64,000 bases of DNA from Streptomyces lienomycini (GTDB taxonomy: Bacteria; Actinomycetota; Actinomycetes; Streptomycetales; Streptomycetaceae), in contig NZ_CP116257.1 of NCBI RefSeq assembly GCF_027947595.1, forward strand, positions 3,720,001 through 3,784,000, given 5' to 3'. Under the pieces are notes generated by a model. That model did no database searches, was not told the origin of the DNA, and saw nothing but the letters and a program-made list of their open reading frames with translations. Within the stretch, counting starts at the first letter, position 1, and every line of letters begins with the position of its first letter. The translations under genes were made by a program, and so were the position numbers. Of this stretch, positions 52,119-60,272 are shown in pieces.

Positions 52119-53123
52119 TCACCGTCCCTCGCGCAGCCGCAGCAGGTACGTCGCCGTCACCGCGACGGCACGGTCCTCGTCCCGGGACAGCTCCAGAAGG
52201 GCACGGGACGCCCTCGCCCCCGGGACGCCGGCCAGCGCCTGGGTCAGCCGTCCGCGTGCGGGTGCCCCGGTCGCGTGGTCGGACAGCCGGCCCAGGAGCC
52301 TGCTCGCGATCCGGTCCGCCATCGCGGTGTCGGTCGCCAGCACGCTCAGCGCGTCGGCCGCGTCGGTGTCGTTCCTGCCCGCCACGATCATGCCGACGAG
52401 CGTGGGAACCGCGTCGGCCACGCCCTGCGCCCCGAGCGCCAGTGCCGCGTAGCCGCGGACCACGGCGTCGGAGTGCGCGAGGGCCTGCCGCAGGTGCGCG
52501 GTGGCCTCCTCGCCGGGCAGCTCGGCGAGTGCCTGCACCGCGCGTTCCCGGACCGCGGCCACCGGTGAGCCGAGGCCCTCGGCCAGCAGTGCCGTACCGG
52601 CGTCGTCCGACCGGGCCAGCGCCCATCGAAGGGCTCCGGCGACGTTCGGTTCCGTCTCGCTCAGGGCCGCCTCGACCAGGGCTTCCACCGGCACCGCGAC
52701 CTCGTGGACCGAGGAGAGGGCCGCGCGCTGGCGGGCGTCGGCGCTCTTCGAGCCCAAACCCTTAAGGAGCGCGACGACCTGGAGGACGTCCTCCCAGTCG
52801 GCGGGGTCCGCGGCGTCGATCCGCCGCAGCCGTGTCAGCAACTCCTGCTCCGCCGCGATGCGTTCACGGGTCTGGCGGACGAGGTCGTCGACGAGAGCCG
52901 AGGGGGTGAAGCCCGGTTCGTCGAGGGCGCGACCGATCTCACGCAGCGACAGCCCGAGCGACCGCAGACTCTCGATGTGGAAGATCCGCCGGATGTCGCC
53001 CTGGGAGTACTCCCGGTAACCGGAGCCCGTACGGCCGGAGGGCCGCACCAGGCCCAGTGACTCGTAGTGCCTGAGCATGCGGGCACTGACCCCGGACCGT
53101 CGAGCCACCTCACCGATCAACAC
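52119..53123 (-). CDS. MerR-family regulator fused to HEAT repeats
   Basis: A 334-residue protein. Residues 1-70 are a MerR HTH (IGEVARRSGVSARMLRHYESLGLVRPSGRTGSGYREYS), then the dimerisation coiled coil (about 75-120). Instead of a metal or drug-binding domain, the rest (about 130-334) is HEAT/armadillo-type helical repeats (VRERAVQALAELPGEEATAHLRQAL). HEAT repeats bind proteins, so the signal may be a protein partner. Only 3 bases separate it from the preceding gene, which encodes another HEAT protein. Confidence 0.88.
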   Translation of the reverse strand: MLIGEVARRSGVSARMLRHYESLGLVRPSGRTGSGYREYSQGDIRRIFHIESLRSLGLSLREIGRALDEPGFTPSALVDDLVRQTRERIAAEQELLTRLRRIDAADPADWEDVLQVVALLKGLGSKSADARQRAALSSVHEVAVPVEALVEAALSETEPNVAGALRWALARSDDAGTALLAEGLGSPVAAVRERAVQALAELPGEEATAHLRQALAHSDAVVRGYAALALGAQGVADAVPTLVGMIVAGRNDTDAADALSVLATDTAMADRIASRLLGRLSDHATGAPARGRLTQALAGVPGARASRALLELSRDEDRAVAVTATYLLRLREGR

Positions 53124-53126
53124 GTC

Positions 53127-53840
53127 CTATCGTCCCTCCTGGCCCGGTCCGCCGAGGGCCACGCCACGCTTCGCCTCCTCGACGGCGAACTCGAATCCGG
53201 TGTCGGGTTCGCGCAGCAACCGCCGAGTGGCCAGGGCGTGCGTGCGCACGACCGGGTCGGGGGCGGTCGTCGCGGTCAGGAGGACCGCCTGGGCCGACTC
53301 GCCCAGCGCGACCAGCGCCCGGCTGAGACTCAGCTGCGTCTCCCGGTCGCCGCGCCCGAGTTGTGTCGCCAGTACCTCGGCCAGGGCGGACTCCCCGCCT
53401 TCCGGCACGAGCACGACCGCGGCCCGCCAGGCGCTGCGGGCCACCTCGTCGTCGGTGTCGGACAGGACGGCGCGGGTGATCGCCGGCCACGCCTGCCCGT
53501 CCCCGGCCTTGGACAGTGTGTGCAGCGCCTGGCTCCGTGCCTGCGGGCGTTTCGAGCGGACCTCGCGCATCAGAGGGGGGAGCGTCATGGCCGGTGGGTG
53601 ACGCGTGAGCGCCCAGGTCAGCATCTCGCGGACGAAGAACTCCGGTTCGCTCGCGCATCGCTCGACGAGCGCGTCGACGAAACGCGGGTTGGGCGACGTG
53701 CCGGCCGCCAGCGCCGCTCGCAGCCGCACGGACGAACGGTCGTCCGCCAGGCCCCGGAGCACACCTGCCGCGTCACCGTCAGCGCCCGTGCTCATGTTCG
53801 TGTCCGTGTCCGTGTTGGCGTTCTGCCTCGCCGTGGTCAT
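53127..53840 (-). CDS. HEAT-repeat protein paired with the MerR-HEAT regulator
   Basis: A 237-residue protein made of about six helical HEAT-like repeats (VRLRAALAAGTSPNPRFVDALVERC, and RPQARSQALHTLSKAGDGQAWPAITRAV). It has no signal, Cys cluster or enzyme motif. It is the first gene of the two-gene operon, and its repeats resemble those of the MerR partner, so the two may bind each other or share an ancestor. ATG 53840 follows GGAGG. A MerR-type promoter lies just upstream. Confidence 0.82.
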   Translation of the reverse strand: MTTARQNANTDTDTNMSTGADGDAAGVLRGLADDRSSVRLRAALAAGTSPNPRFVDALVERCASEPEFFVREMLTWALTRHPPAMTLPPLMREVRSKRPQARSQALHTLSKAGDGQAWPAITRAVLSDTDDEVARSAWRAAVVLVPEGGESALAEVLATQLGRGDRETQLSLSRALVALGESAQAVLLTATTAPDPVVRTHALATRRLLREPDTGFEFAVEEAKRGVALGGPGQEGR

Positions 53841-53862
53841 GGAGACCACCTCCTCGGCCCAC

Positions 53863-55919: not shown

Positions 55920-55937
55920 AGTGACCCTTTCGTCACT
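55920..55937. promoter_or_regulatory. dyad between VOC gene and furan operon
   Basis: AGTGACCCTTTCGTCACT has perfect 6-bp arms (AGTGAC/GTCACT) and an AT-richer centre. It is 90 bases before the VOC gene and 120 before the MfnB-like gene, so it could serve either or both. No regulator gene is adjacent. Confidence 0.45.
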
Positions 55938-55949
55938 CCGCGCGCCCTG

Positions 55950-56030
55950 CCGGGGCCCGACGGCCCCGGAAATGATGTGCGGGACCGCCCGTGAGACAGG
56001 CGAATCCGCGCACCTGCCACGGGGCAGGTG
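55950..56030 (+). other. two strong hairpins in the leader of the furan operon
   Basis: CCGGGGCC-CGAC-GGCCCCGG (55950-55969) and CACCTGCC-ACGG-GGCAGGTG (56011-56030) are both perfect 8-bp stems with 4-base loops. The second ends just before the AGGGGAAGG ribosome site of the first gene. They could be an attenuator, an mRNA stabiliser or a protein site; no known riboswitch is recognisable. Confidence 0.5.
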
Positions 56031-56056
56031 GACAGAGGCAGGGGAAGGATCCCACC

Positions 56057-56809
56057 TTGTTGCTTCTCATATCTCCGGACAGTGTCGAGGAAGCCCTCGA
56101 GTGCGCGAAGGCGGCCCAGTACCTCGACATCGTCGACGTCAAGAAGCCCGACGAGGGCTCGCTCGGCGCCAACTACCCCTGGGTCATCAGAGAGATCCGC
56201 GCGGCGGTCCCGGCGGACAAGCCGGTGTCCGCCACGGTGGGAGACGTACCGTACAAGCCCGGTACGGTGGCCCAGGCGGCGCTCGGCGCGGCCGTCTCCG
56301 GAGCCACCTACATCAAGGTCGGCCTCTACGGGTGCACGACGCCCGAGCAGGCCGTCGACGTCATGCGGGGGGTCGTCCGGGCAGTGAAGGACCACCGGCC
56401 GGACGCGTTCGTCGTCGCCTCCGGCTACGCCGACGCCCACCGGATCGGCTGCGTCAACCCGCTCGCACTGCCCGACATCGCCCGCCGCTCCGGCTCCGAC
56501 GCCGCCATGCTCGACACCGCGGTGAAGGACGGAACGCGCCTGTTCGACCACCTGCCGGCCGACGTCTGCGCGGAGTTCGTACGACGCGCGCACGCGGCCG
56601 GACTCCTCGCCGCCCTGGCGGGCAGCGTCAAGGCGGGCGACCTCGCCGAGCTGGCGCGCATCGGCACGGACATCGTCGGCGTGCGCGGCGCGGTGTGCGA
56701 GGGAGGCGACCGCGACTCCGGCCGCATCCAACCGCACCTGGTGGCCGCCTTCCGGGCGGAGATGGACCGGCACGTCCGGGAACACGCGACTCCCGCCCCC
56801 GCGAACTGA
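56057..56809 (+). CDS. MfnB-like (5-formylfuran-3-yl)methyl phosphate synthase
   Basis: A 250-residue TIM-barrel protein of the DUF556/MfnB family. Archaeal MfnB joins two glyceraldehyde-3-phosphate molecules into 4-(hydroxymethyl)furfural phosphate, the furan of methanofuran. Near-diagnostic runs are present: [51 protein letters not shown] and MLDTAVKDG. Lys29 and Lys157 sit where the archaeal enzyme has its two active-site lysines. I start it at TTG 56057 (AGGGGAAGG about 8 bases upstream), which matches the family N-terminus; a GTG at 55991 would add 22 unrelated residues. Streptomyces do not make methanofuran, so the furan is probably for something else. Confidence 0.9.
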
Positions 56810-56817
56810 CCGCCACC

Positions 56818-58221
56818 ATGCCGGAGAAGCGCTCCTGCGGCGTGCCCGGAAGCCACGAGGGACACTTCGCCGTCGTCGATCCGGCGACGGGCGAGGCCTT
56901 CGACGAGGCCCCGGACCAACAGCCCCACGAACTCGACGCCGTCGTCGAGCGGGCCCACGCCGCCTGGCGCGGCTGGCGAGCCGACCCCGCCGCCCGAACC
57001 GCCGCGCTCCTGACCGCCGCCGACGCCGTGGAGGCGGCCGAAGCGGAACTCGCCGCGCTGCTCACCCGCGAACAGGGCAAGCCCCTGGCCGAGTCGTACG
57101 CGGAGGTCGCCCGTACGGCGGCGCGGATGCGCTACTTCGCCCAACTAGACCCGGGCGTACAGCCGATCACGGACGGCCGGCCGGTACGCAGCGAGGTCCG
57201 CTGGCGATCGCTCGGACCCGTCGCCGCGATCGTGCCCTGGAACTTCCCCCTCCAACTGGCGTCGGCGAAGTTCGCCCCGGCGCTCGCCGCGGGCAACACG
57301 GTGGTCCTCAAGCCGTCCCCGTACACACCCCTCGCCACGCGGCTCCTGGCGTCCGTCGTCGCCGACGCCCTGCCCGAGGACGTACTGACGGTCGTCACCG
57401 GCCGAGAACCCCTCGGCGCCGGGCTCGCGGCCCACCCCGGGATCCGCCACGTGACCTTCACCGGGTCGGTGCCCACCGGACGGGCCGTCGCGTCGGGCGC
57501 GGCGGCCTCGCTCGCCCGGGTCACCCTCGAGATGGGCGGCAACGACGCCGCCGTCCTGCTGGACGACGTCCAGGTGGACCGGATCGCCGACCGGCTCTTC
57601 TGGGCGGCGTTCCGCAACTGCGGGCAGGTGTGCATGGCGGTCAAGCGCGTCTACGCCCCGGCCCGACTCCACGCCCACGTGGTCGAGGCCCTCGCCCACC
57701 GCGCCAAGACGACCGTGGTCGGTCCCGGGCTCGACCCCGACTCCCGACTCGGGCCGCTCAACAACGCGGCCCAACTGGCCCGGACCGAGCACCTCGCGGC
57801 CGGGGCCCTCGCGGACGGCGCCCTGGCCGCGGCCGGCGGACACCGCCTGGACCTGCCGGGCTACTTCTTCGCCCCGACCATTCTGACCAACGTGCCGCCC
57901 GACAGCCCCGTCGTGCGGGAGGAGCAGTTCGGCCCGGTCCTGCCCGTCCTGCCGTACGACGACCTCGACGACGCCGTGGAGGCGGCCAACGACACGGGAT
58001 TCGGCCTGGGCGGCTCGGTGTGGGGCACCGACCCGGAGCGGGCCGAGGCCGTGGCCGACCGCCTGGAGTGCGGGACGGCATGGGTCAACCACCACGCCGA
58101 ACTCTCCCTCGCCCAGCCCTTCGCGGGCGCCAAGGAGAGCGGTGTCGGCGTCGCGGGCGGCCCGTGGGGCCTGTACGGAAACCTCAGACCCTTCGTCGTG
58201 CACCGTCGGGAGGGGGACTGA
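56818..58221 (+). CDS. NAD(P)-dependent aldehyde dehydrogenase
   Basis: A 467-residue ALDH-superfamily enzyme with all catalytic residues: Asn142 (PWNFP), Glu238 (LEMGGND) and Cys272 (NCGQVC). It most resembles the succinate-semialdehyde/benzaldehyde dehydrogenase branch. It starts 8 bases after the MfnB-like gene and ends 1 base before the alcohol dehydrogenase gene, so it belongs to the same transcript. The obvious substrate in this setting is the 2-formyl group of the furan made by the first enzyme, giving a furoic acid; this is inference. Confidence 0.93.
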   Translation: MPEKRSCGVPGSHEGHFAVVDPATGEAFDEAPDQQPHELDAVVERAHAAWRGWRADPAARTAALLTAADAVEAAEAELAALLTREQGKPLAESYAEVARTAARMRYFAQLDPGVQPITDGRPVRSEVRWRSLGPVAAIVPWNFPLQLASAKFAPALAAGNTVVLKPSPYTPLATRLLASVVADALPEDVLTVVTGREPLGAGLAAHPGIRHVTFTGSVPTGRAVASGAAASLARVTLEMGGNDAAVLLDDVQVDRIADRLFWAAFRNCGQVCMAVKRVYAPARLHAHVVEALAHRAKTTVVGPGLDPDSRLGPLNNAAQLARTEHLAAGALADGALAAAGGHRLDLPGYFFAPTILTNVPPDSPVVREEQFGPVLPVLPYDDLDDAVEAANDTGFGLGGSVWGTDPERAEAVADRLECGTAWVNHHAELSLAQPFAGAKESGVGVAGGPWGLYGNLRPFVVHRREGD

Positions 58222-58222
58222 C

Positions 58223-59329
58223 ATGAGGTTCCGTGCGGCGGTACTGCGCTCGTACGAGGACCGGTTCGCCGTCGAGGACGTCCTTTTGAACACGGGGCCC
58301 GCCGAGGGGGAGGTCCTGGTCCGGATCGCGGGCTGCGGAATGTGCCGGACCGATCTCGCGGTCCGGCGTTCGGCGGGCCGCTCCCCGCTGCCGGCCGTAC
58401 TCGGTCACGAGGGCGCCGGAGTCGTGGTGCGGACGGGCGGCGCGGGGACCGGCCTGACCGTCGGAGACCATGTCGTGCTGAGCTTCGACTCCTGCGGACA
58501 CTGCCACGCCTGCCTGGGCGCGGCCCCCGCCTACTGCGACTCCTTCGCCGCGCTGAACCTCTTCGGCGGGCGCGCGGAGAACGCCGCGCGGTTCACCGAC
58601 GCGACCGGAGGCGCACTGGCCCCCCGTTGGTTCGGCCAGTCCTCGTTCGCCGAGTACGCGATGGTCCCCGCCCGCAACGCCGTGCGCGTCGACCCCGCGC
58701 TGCCCCTGGAACTTCTGGGCCCGCTCGGCTGCGGCTTCCTCACCGGAGCCGGGGCGGTCCTCAACTCCTTCCGCGCCGGCCCCGGCGACACCCTCGCGGT
58801 GTTCGGCGCGGGAGCGGTGGGCCTGGCCGCGGTGATGGCGGCCGCCGCGGCCGGGGCGGTGACCGTGGCCGTCGACCGGCACGTCGGGCGGCTGGCCCTC
58901 GCCGAGCGCTTCCACGCGGTCCCCGTGCACGCCGCGTCGGCCGACCTGCCCGCCCGTGTCCGGCGGCTGACCGGCGGCGGCGCGCGGTACGCCCTGGACA
59001 CCACGGGCGACGCCGAGCTGATCAACGACGCGCTCCGGTCCCTGCGCCCGACCGGTCGCCTCGGCCTGGTGGCACGGCTCGGCGCCACGCTGCCGCTCGA
59101 ACCCGGAACACTGGACCGGGGCCGCAGCGTCTCCCACATCTGCGAGGGCGACGCGGTCCCCGGACTGCTGATCCCGCGGCTGACCGAGCTGTGGCGGGCC
59201 GAGCTGTTCCCCTTCGACCAACTGATCCGTACGTATCCGCTCGCCGACATCAACGAGGCCGAACAGGACTGCGACGCGGGCCGCGTCGTCAAACCCGTAC
59301 TGATCCCGGACCGGCCCCCACCCGCATGA
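58223..59329 (+). CDS. zinc-dependent alcohol dehydrogenase (aryl-alcohol type)
   Basis: A 368-residue MDR enzyme. Catalytic zinc ligands are Cys41 (CGMCRTD) and His62 (GHEGAG), with a structural zinc site at Cys91, Cys94, Cys97 and Cys105. The Rossmann motif FGAGAVGLAA is near residue 195. Sequence style resembles benzyl-alcohol dehydrogenases, which fits a furfuryl alcohol substrate. It could oxidise the 4-hydroxymethyl group of the furan to an aldehyde for the neighbouring ALDH, or run in reverse. The ATG comes 1 base after the ALDH stop, with GGGAGGGGG as ribosome site. Confidence 0.93.
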   Translation: MRFRAAVLRSYEDRFAVEDVLLNTGPAEGEVLVRIAGCGMCRTDLAVRRSAGRSPLPAVLGHEGAGVVVRTGGAGTGLTVGDHVVLSFDSCGHCHACLGAAPAYCDSFAALNLFGGRAENAARFTDATGGALAPRWFGQSSFAEYAMVPARNAVRVDPALPLELLGPLGCGFLTGAGAVLNSFRAGPGDTLAVFGAGAVGLAAVMAAAAAGAVTVAVDRHVGRLALAERFHAVPVHAASADLPARVRRLTGGGARYALDTTGDAELINDALRSLRPTGRLGLVARLGATLPLEPGTLDRGRSVSHICEGDAVPGLLIPRLTELWRAELFPFDQLIRTYPLADINEAEQDCDAGRVVKPVLIPDRPPPA

Positions 59330-59363
59330 CGACGACGGCGCCACTCACCCCGAGGGAGAACAC

Positions 59364-60272
59364 ATGGCCGACACCGCACGTCGAGACTCCGGTGTGGAAG
59401 GTGTGGACGGCGGCGTCGGCCGGACCGCCCTCCTGGTCGCGGCGGCCCGGGCGATCGAGACCTACCGCCCCGACAGCCTGGCCCAGGACGTCCACGCGGA
59501 ACACTTCGTCCTCGCCGCACCGGCGTCCGCGGGCTGGCCGGTCCGCATGTGGCAGGTTCCGGACGGCGACGCGAACCCGCTGTGGGGCCGGTTCGCGCGC
59601 TACTTCGGACTGCGGACCCGGGTTCTCGACGACTTCCTCCTCCGCGCGGTGCACGCGGACGGCGTCCGGCAGGTGGTGCTGCTGGGAGCCGGACTGGACA
59701 CGCGCGCGTTCCGGCTCGCATGGCCCTCCGGGTGCGTGGTCTTCGAGATCGACAGGGAAGGCGTACTGGCGTTCAAGCACAAGGTGCTCGACGGACTGTC
59801 GGCCATACCGCGGACCACACGTGTACCGGTCGCCACCGATCTGCGCGCCGACTGGGCCGGCGCGCTGACAGACGCCGGCTTCGACCCGGCGGCGCCCACG
59901 GCCTGGCTGGTCGAGGGCCTGCTGTTCTACCTGCCGGGCGCGGCCGAGACCTACCTCGTGAACACGGTGGACCGGCTGAGCGCACGGGGGAGCGCGCTGG
60001 CGTACGAGGTGAAGCTGGAGAAGGACCTGCTGGCCTACCGCGACAGCCCGCTCTACACCGCGACGCGCCGACAGATCGGCATCGACCTGCTCAGCCTGTT
60101 CAGTCTGGAACCCCGGCCCGACTCCGCGGCCGGTCTGGAGGCCAACGGCTGGACCACGACGGTGCACACACCCTTCGACTTCACCCGCCGGCACGGACGG
60201 GGCCCGCTGCCGGAACCGAACGACGCGCTGGCCGGCAATCGGTGGGTGTTCGCGGGCAGGGCGGGGTCGTGA
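59364..60272 (+). CDS. SAM-dependent O-methyltransferase, TIGR00027/leucine carboxyl methyltransferase-like
   Basis: A 302-residue methyltransferase. The SAM motif is VVLLGAGLDTRAFRLAWP (about 103-120), then FEIDREGVLAFK and WLVEGLLFYLP, the marks of the PPM/TcmP-like group, which often methylate carboxylates or phenols. The ATG has GAGGGAG upstream and lies 34 bases after the alcohol dehydrogenase gene. As last gene of the operon it could turn a furan carboxylate made by the dehydrogenases into its methyl ester; that is inference. It ends 14 bases before the convergent YceI gene. Confidence 0.9.
   Translation: MADTARRDSGVEGVDGGVGRTALLVAAARAIETYRPDSLAQDVHAEHFVLAAPASAGWPVRMWQVPDGDANPLWGRFARYFGLRTRVLDDFLLRAVHADGVRQVVLLGAGLDTRAFRLAWPSGCVVFEIDREGVLAFKHKVLDGLSAIPRTTRVPVATDLRADWAGALTDAGFDPAAPTAWLVEGLLFYLPGAAETYLVNTVDRLSARGSALAYEVKLEKDLLAYRDSPLYTATRRQIGIDLLSLFSLEPRPDSAAGLEANGWTTTVHTPFDFTRRHGRGPLPEPNDALAGNRWVFAGRAGS

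Follow-up and report, generated by a model that had tools for sequence, protein, structure and literature searches.

A 64,000-nt stretch of the Streptomyces lienomycini genome (contig NZ_CP116257.1, positions 3,720,001 to 3,784,000; the window below), which belongs to a 7.86-Mb genome in one contig (G000), carries four genes on one strand that encode a relative of the furan synthase MfnB, an aldehyde dehydrogenase (ALDH), a zinc alcohol dehydrogenase (ADH), and a methyltransferase (MT). These genes and the leader that precedes them are as follows.

55941-56056, + strand: leader, composed of GCGCCCT, a spacer of 22-23 nt and AATGATG, then a 5' untranslated region with an inverted repeat and a Shine-Dalgarno sequence; probable promoter or operator, partly conserved
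56057-56809, + strand: mfnB, 4-HFC-P synthase-like protein of 250 aa with a TTG start (Pfam, NCBIfam, PDB relative)
56818-58221, + strand: ALDH, aldehyde dehydrogenase of 467 aa (PF00171)
58223-59329, + strand: ADH, zinc alcohol dehydrogenase of 368 aa (PF08240 with PF00107)
59364-60272, + strand: MT, LCM/TIGR00027 S-adenosylmethionine-dependent methyltransferase of 302 aa (PF04072 LCM, NCBIfam)

The coordinates leave gaps of 8, 1, and 34 bases between successive genes. A first-pass annotation of this DNA had already described the same set and spacing, and the gene calls together with the Pfam and NCBIfam matches agreed with it. Its start at 55920, by contrast, fell inside the leader region, and comparison of 80 loci placed the homologous mfnB start at 56057, where the codon was TTG in 61, GTG in 18, and ATG in 1. 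These were all but one of a set of 81 loci (the omitted locus had too little upstream DNA), which comprised the window and the best 80 of 310 relatives and thus leaned to close relatives. Conserved synteny had been proposed as a check on the four-gene set, and in 71 of the 81 loci each of the four genes had more than 85% coverage, confirming that the set is not a chance arrangement. In two loci (L050 and L106), the contig ended soon after mfnB.

The mfnB product matched PF04476 (4HFCP_synth) at 269 bits (cutoff 22.4) and the NCBIfam model NF002573, (5-formylfuran-3-yl)methyl phosphate synthase, at 396 bits (cutoff 341), and it was the single PF04476 match in its genome. By sequence, its sole PDB relative at E <= 0.001 was MJ1099, the MfnB of Methanocaldococcus jannaschii (PDB 4rc1 and 4u9p; E 3.4e-82), with which it shared 60% identity over aligned positions; the corresponding value was 46% each for the MfnBs of L115 and L116, from two other genomes of the phylum. 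All five catalytic positions of MJ1099 were kept in the window protein as D27, K29, K87, D153, and K157 (D25, K27, K85, D151, and K155 in MJ1099), and they were invariant in 100 of 100 distinct MfnB sequences (111 of 111 rows when duplicates were counted), bearing out the earlier statement that the active-site lysine regions are intact. Of these, we take D25, D151, and K85 to be active-site positions. MfnB requires two lysines and two aspartates, with Lys27 forming the Schiff base, according to a review (PMC6604932), and Lys155 is catalytic according to a second paper (PMC11365854). In gene context, the window differs from the setting of MJ1099, as its genome lacks FTR and mfnB is grouped there with ALDH, ADH, and MT. 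Separately, a diverged relative was observed in genome G108 (L119:6636-8000, + strand), where a 454-aa protein had an N-terminal partial PF04476 match of 48.8 bits; by eye, DSEDP seems to replace DVKKP in its Schiff-base lysine region, and DegT aminotransferase and GFO/IDH/MocA genes lie nearby. The function of this protein has perhaps changed. Weak partial PF04476 matches were likewise seen in G228 and G080.

Among 295 same-genus genomes, PF04476 was matched in 73, four of which were set aside (the weak partial matches in G080, G108, and G228, and a broken gene in G224). The ADH at E <= 1e-90 was also found in 73 genomes, and four of these were set aside because their best match was only 47-51% identical. 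Intact mfnB and ADH then occurred in an identical set of 69 genomes, in which the ADH was at least 76% identical to that of the window; the ADH match of G119 covered residues 159-363 only. Across 396 genomes of the phylum, there were six PF04476 matches, three in the genus of the window (its own genome included), two strong ones elsewhere, and one below the cutoff. Named carriers include Streptomyces, Kitasatospora, and Actinacidiphila, with Embleya and Yinghuangia by protein, and plasmids of Streptantibioticus. Moreover, mfnB was present at 85-92% identity on 13 Streptomyces or Streptantibioticus plasmid records, some of them of one replicon. In the three plasmids examined, the four genes were in order in all three, the EF-hand gene discussed below was close by in two, and Tn3 transposase genes lay about 2.6 kb away in one. 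A decaying copy was observed in G224 (L117, contig C1), with a broken mfnB frame and a short ADH region. The flanks of the operon were largely unshared. With neighbors clustered at 45% identity using our own gene caller, the commonest further neighbor was the EF-hand gene (29 of 81 loci), followed by a gene that occurred in 9. Given these unshared flanks and the plasmid copies, the operon is a portable cassette. In the window itself, the immediate neighbors were glyoxalase-like and 2'-5' RNA ligase-like genes upstream and a YceI-like gene downstream. By eye, 52119-53849 (- strand), about 2.2 kb upstream of mfnB, encodes a MerR-like regulator next to a repeat-like protein; the former recurs near the cassette in three other loci (L058, L065, and L073) and the latter in four (also L093).

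Within the cassette, the genes were not equally constant. The ALDH gene was missing or degenerate, with mfnB, ADH, and MT kept, in 8 of 79 loci (L047, L049, L056, L057, L063, L094, L098, and L110), and the ADH of L049 was split into two parts. A quick tree built from the three shared proteins of the 79 loci required 6 changes of ALDH state, of which well-supported branches forced 5, compared with a mean of 7.7 for shuffled labels, so that ALDH absence was mildly clustered. Remnants of ALDH persisted in four of the eight loci (L047, L049, L057, and L110), indicating loss rather than gain there. Thus ALDH was lost repeatedly while the other three genes stayed, a pattern newly noticed here. The MT gene lay on the same strand in 68 loci and was inverted in 11, requiring at least 8 changes on the tree. 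At the residue level, the ADH, whose nearest solved relatives in a PDB sequence search were 5tnx and the benzyl alcohol dehydrogenase 1f8f, kept C41, H62, E63, and C170 as well as cysteines 91, 94, 97, and 105 in 79 of 79 loci, and we take C41, H62, and C170 to be zinc ligands, as in the MDR family. Every ALDH sequence with a letter at the position in question kept C272 (72 of 72) and E238 (71 of 71). The MT, with ML2640 and Rv0731c as solved relatives and one other relative in the genome of the window at E <= 1e-10 (44% identity), kept G108, G110, D112, and E128 in 79 of 79 loci, with position 130 being D in 77 and E in 2.

The known role of MfnB lies in the one-carbon cofactors of methanogens and methylotrophs. 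FTR (PF01913) gave no match in the genome of the window, while 2 of 14 control genomes matched, both of them archaeal methanogens, and methanofuran as the product is therefore unsupported. Neither mfnC, mfnD, mfnE, nor mfnF was identified beside mfnB among the immediate neighbors and the genes found in more than 9 of 81 loci; rarer neighbors were mostly unannotated, and no genome-wide search was made. The non-methanofuran setting proposed in the first-pass annotation thus holds, the window being unlike L116 (G561:C67, 54% GC, same phylum), in which mfnB stands with FTR and AA-kinase genes and, by eye, with formylmethanofuran dehydrogenase-like, ATP-grasp, and MfnF-like genes, as in a methanofuran-type locus. 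In L115 (G336), a kinase-like gene adjoins mfnB by eye. Both loci share with the window an MfnB of the same Pfam family, although the window cassette is of another kind. Also comparable are the methylenomycin furans of Streptomyces coelicolor (MmfL, MmfH, and MmfP), small hydroxymethylfurans made from a triose phosphate that induce antibiotic production, as described in the review (PMC6604932). The window operon would similarly make a small furan from triose phosphate in Streptomyces. Unlike that system, its four proteins matched no family beyond the four named above, and no AfsA/MmfL synthase was among their Pfam matches, no genome-wide search having been made.

The partly conserved leader before mfnB is an addition to the first-pass annotation. 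The spacer between GCGCCCT and AATGATG was 22-23 nt in 62 of 65 measured loci, with no match in a further 4, and the leader blocks were conserved across loci whose flanks differ. Such fixed spacing suggests that the leader is probably a promoter or operator. Mean pairwise identity over 61 loci was 0.72 at -90..-1, 0.60 at -135..-91, 0.47 at -230..-140, and 0.32 at -330..-240; since the fourfold sites of mfnB reached 0.71 in the same loci, about equal to the leader, there is no support for leader selection over and above shared recent ancestry. In a sample of 150 genomes, the strict leader pattern was found in 8, once each and always upstream of mfnB (8 of 39 cassette genomes versus 0 of 111 others), and a wider regulon was rejected on this ground. 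A structured leader RNA or riboswitch was considered because an inverted repeat precedes the ribosome site and Shine-Dalgarno and anti-Shine-Dalgarno sequences seemed to match, and was rejected as unsupported: pairing fractions in 55 leaders were hardly above independence, and the RNAalifold energy was -2.97 kcal/mol, its covariation term being -0.18. Rfam returned only subthreshold matches (best E 0.68), and none reached gathering scores in the window and four loci. An upstream open reading frame from ATGATG was likewise discarded, as its frame relative to mfnB was not kept (distance remainders 27, 25, and 14).

The association of an EF-hand protein, whose best PDB relative was calerythrin, with the cassette is a second addition. 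At E <= 1e-45, it was found in 69 of the 295 genomes, namely, 52 of 69 with the cassette and 17 of 226 without it (Fisher p 3.6e-28, uncorrected for relatedness), a count that may favor cassette genomes because the query was a cassette-linked copy. In the 52 genomes, the EF-hand gene lay less than 10 kb from mfnB in 26; in 8 it shared the contig with mfnB at a great distance (66 kb in the genome of the window), and in the other 18 the two were on different contigs. Of the 29 linked loci, 20 had the gene downstream and 9 upstream, both orientations being seen, and linkage required at least 9 changes on the tree. Directly 3' of the EF-hand gene of G000, outside the window near 3.84 Mb, a histidine phosphatase gene was noted (L133:8721-9383, + strand). 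As a candidate for a missing phosphatase of the cassette, it was rejected because a search of 110 loci and the window stretch gave no relative.

Judging from homology and the invariant catalytic residues, the cassette very probably forms a furan. The best overall reading, which we hold with some confidence, is that it is self-contained and synthesizes a small methylated 2,4-disubstituted furan, perhaps diffusible. MfnB would condense two glyceraldehyde-3-phosphates to 4-(hydroxymethyl)furfural phosphate, and a host phosphatase would strip the phosphate, as the cassette encodes none. The zinc ADH, close to aryl-alcohol dehydrogenases, would set the oxidation state of the side chains, with ALDH where present. 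The LCM-type MT would then cap the molecule, a methyl ester or ether being the simplest outcome. MfnB, ADH, and MT would form the core, with ALDH dispensable and presumably replaced by ADH or another host ALDH. That the product is a methylated small furan seems somewhat more plausible than not, while its action as a diffusible signal is doubtful; the step from a capped, uncharged product to a diffusible signal or semiochemical would be the weakest of the scheme. Several points weigh against this reading. The product and enzyme activities are predicted from genes, and LCM family membership leaves the methyl acceptor unfixed. No phosphatase, exporter, or receptor gene was widely conserved beside the cassette among the neighbors of the 81 loci, and 14 of the 69 ADH matches counted one stop codon inside the matched stretch. 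In addition, a route through an acid and then an ester is weakened by the ALDH-deficient loci. Hence, the pathway of the first-pass annotation was retained in part: MfnB identity, catalytic residues, synteny, and the non-methanofuran setting stood, and the simple scheme in which ALDH makes an acid that MT methylates became less likely.

Alternatively, the cassette could do no more than supply the furan, which enzymes from other loci would then join to a larger molecule as a building block or cofactor-like group, as happens in methanofuran. The known role of MfnB in cofactor synthesis, as stated in the review (PMC6604932), and the lack of a widely conserved tailoring gene nearby beyond the four are consistent with this; the absence of FTR from the genome, the EF-hand gene as the only widespread further neighbor, an occurrence in 69 of 295 genomes, unlike that of a core cofactor, and a methyltransferase that would be odd as the last step make it unlikely. 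A reactive furan aldehyde or dialdehyde might instead serve as a small toxin or antibiotic, with ADH, ALDH, and MT setting or blunting its reactivity. An ADH near benzyl alcohol dehydrogenase in one operon with an ALDH, and a patchy, partly plasmid-borne distribution that fits an accessory trait, speak for it. Yet, with every neighbor other than the EF-hand gene confined to at most 9 of 81 loci, that set shows no widely conserved transporter or resistance gene beside the cassette, and no activity is known, which renders this option improbable. Least probable is that the window MfnB forms no furan and works on a different substrate, such as some other sugar phosphate or aldehyde: the class I aldolase fold lends itself to new functions, the gene context is wholly unlike that of L116, and the diverged protein of G108 has a changed lysine region, but the identity to a characterized MfnB, the five invariant positions, and a score above the NCBIfam cutoff for the function argue against it.

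Returning to a small methylated furan as the product, a far-reaching extension would be a mobile five-part system in which a private promoter or leader, the archaeal-type furan synthase, ADH, and MT (ALDH being optional) yield a capped furan hormone of Streptomyces, and the EF-hand protein, co-inherited with the cassette but frequently not linked to it, ties production or perception of the hormone to calcium; we regard this as rather speculative. Biological furan synthesis is very rare according to the review (PMC6604932). No description of a Streptomyces mfnB operon was found among the papers listed in searches of open-license literature, which leaves most subscription papers outside. The cassette may escape the usual cluster-finding rules because it is so short. 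Its occurrence in nearly a quarter of the same-genus genomes, seemingly reusing MfnB, suggests that a genus mined for decades still holds a small metabolite yet to be described.
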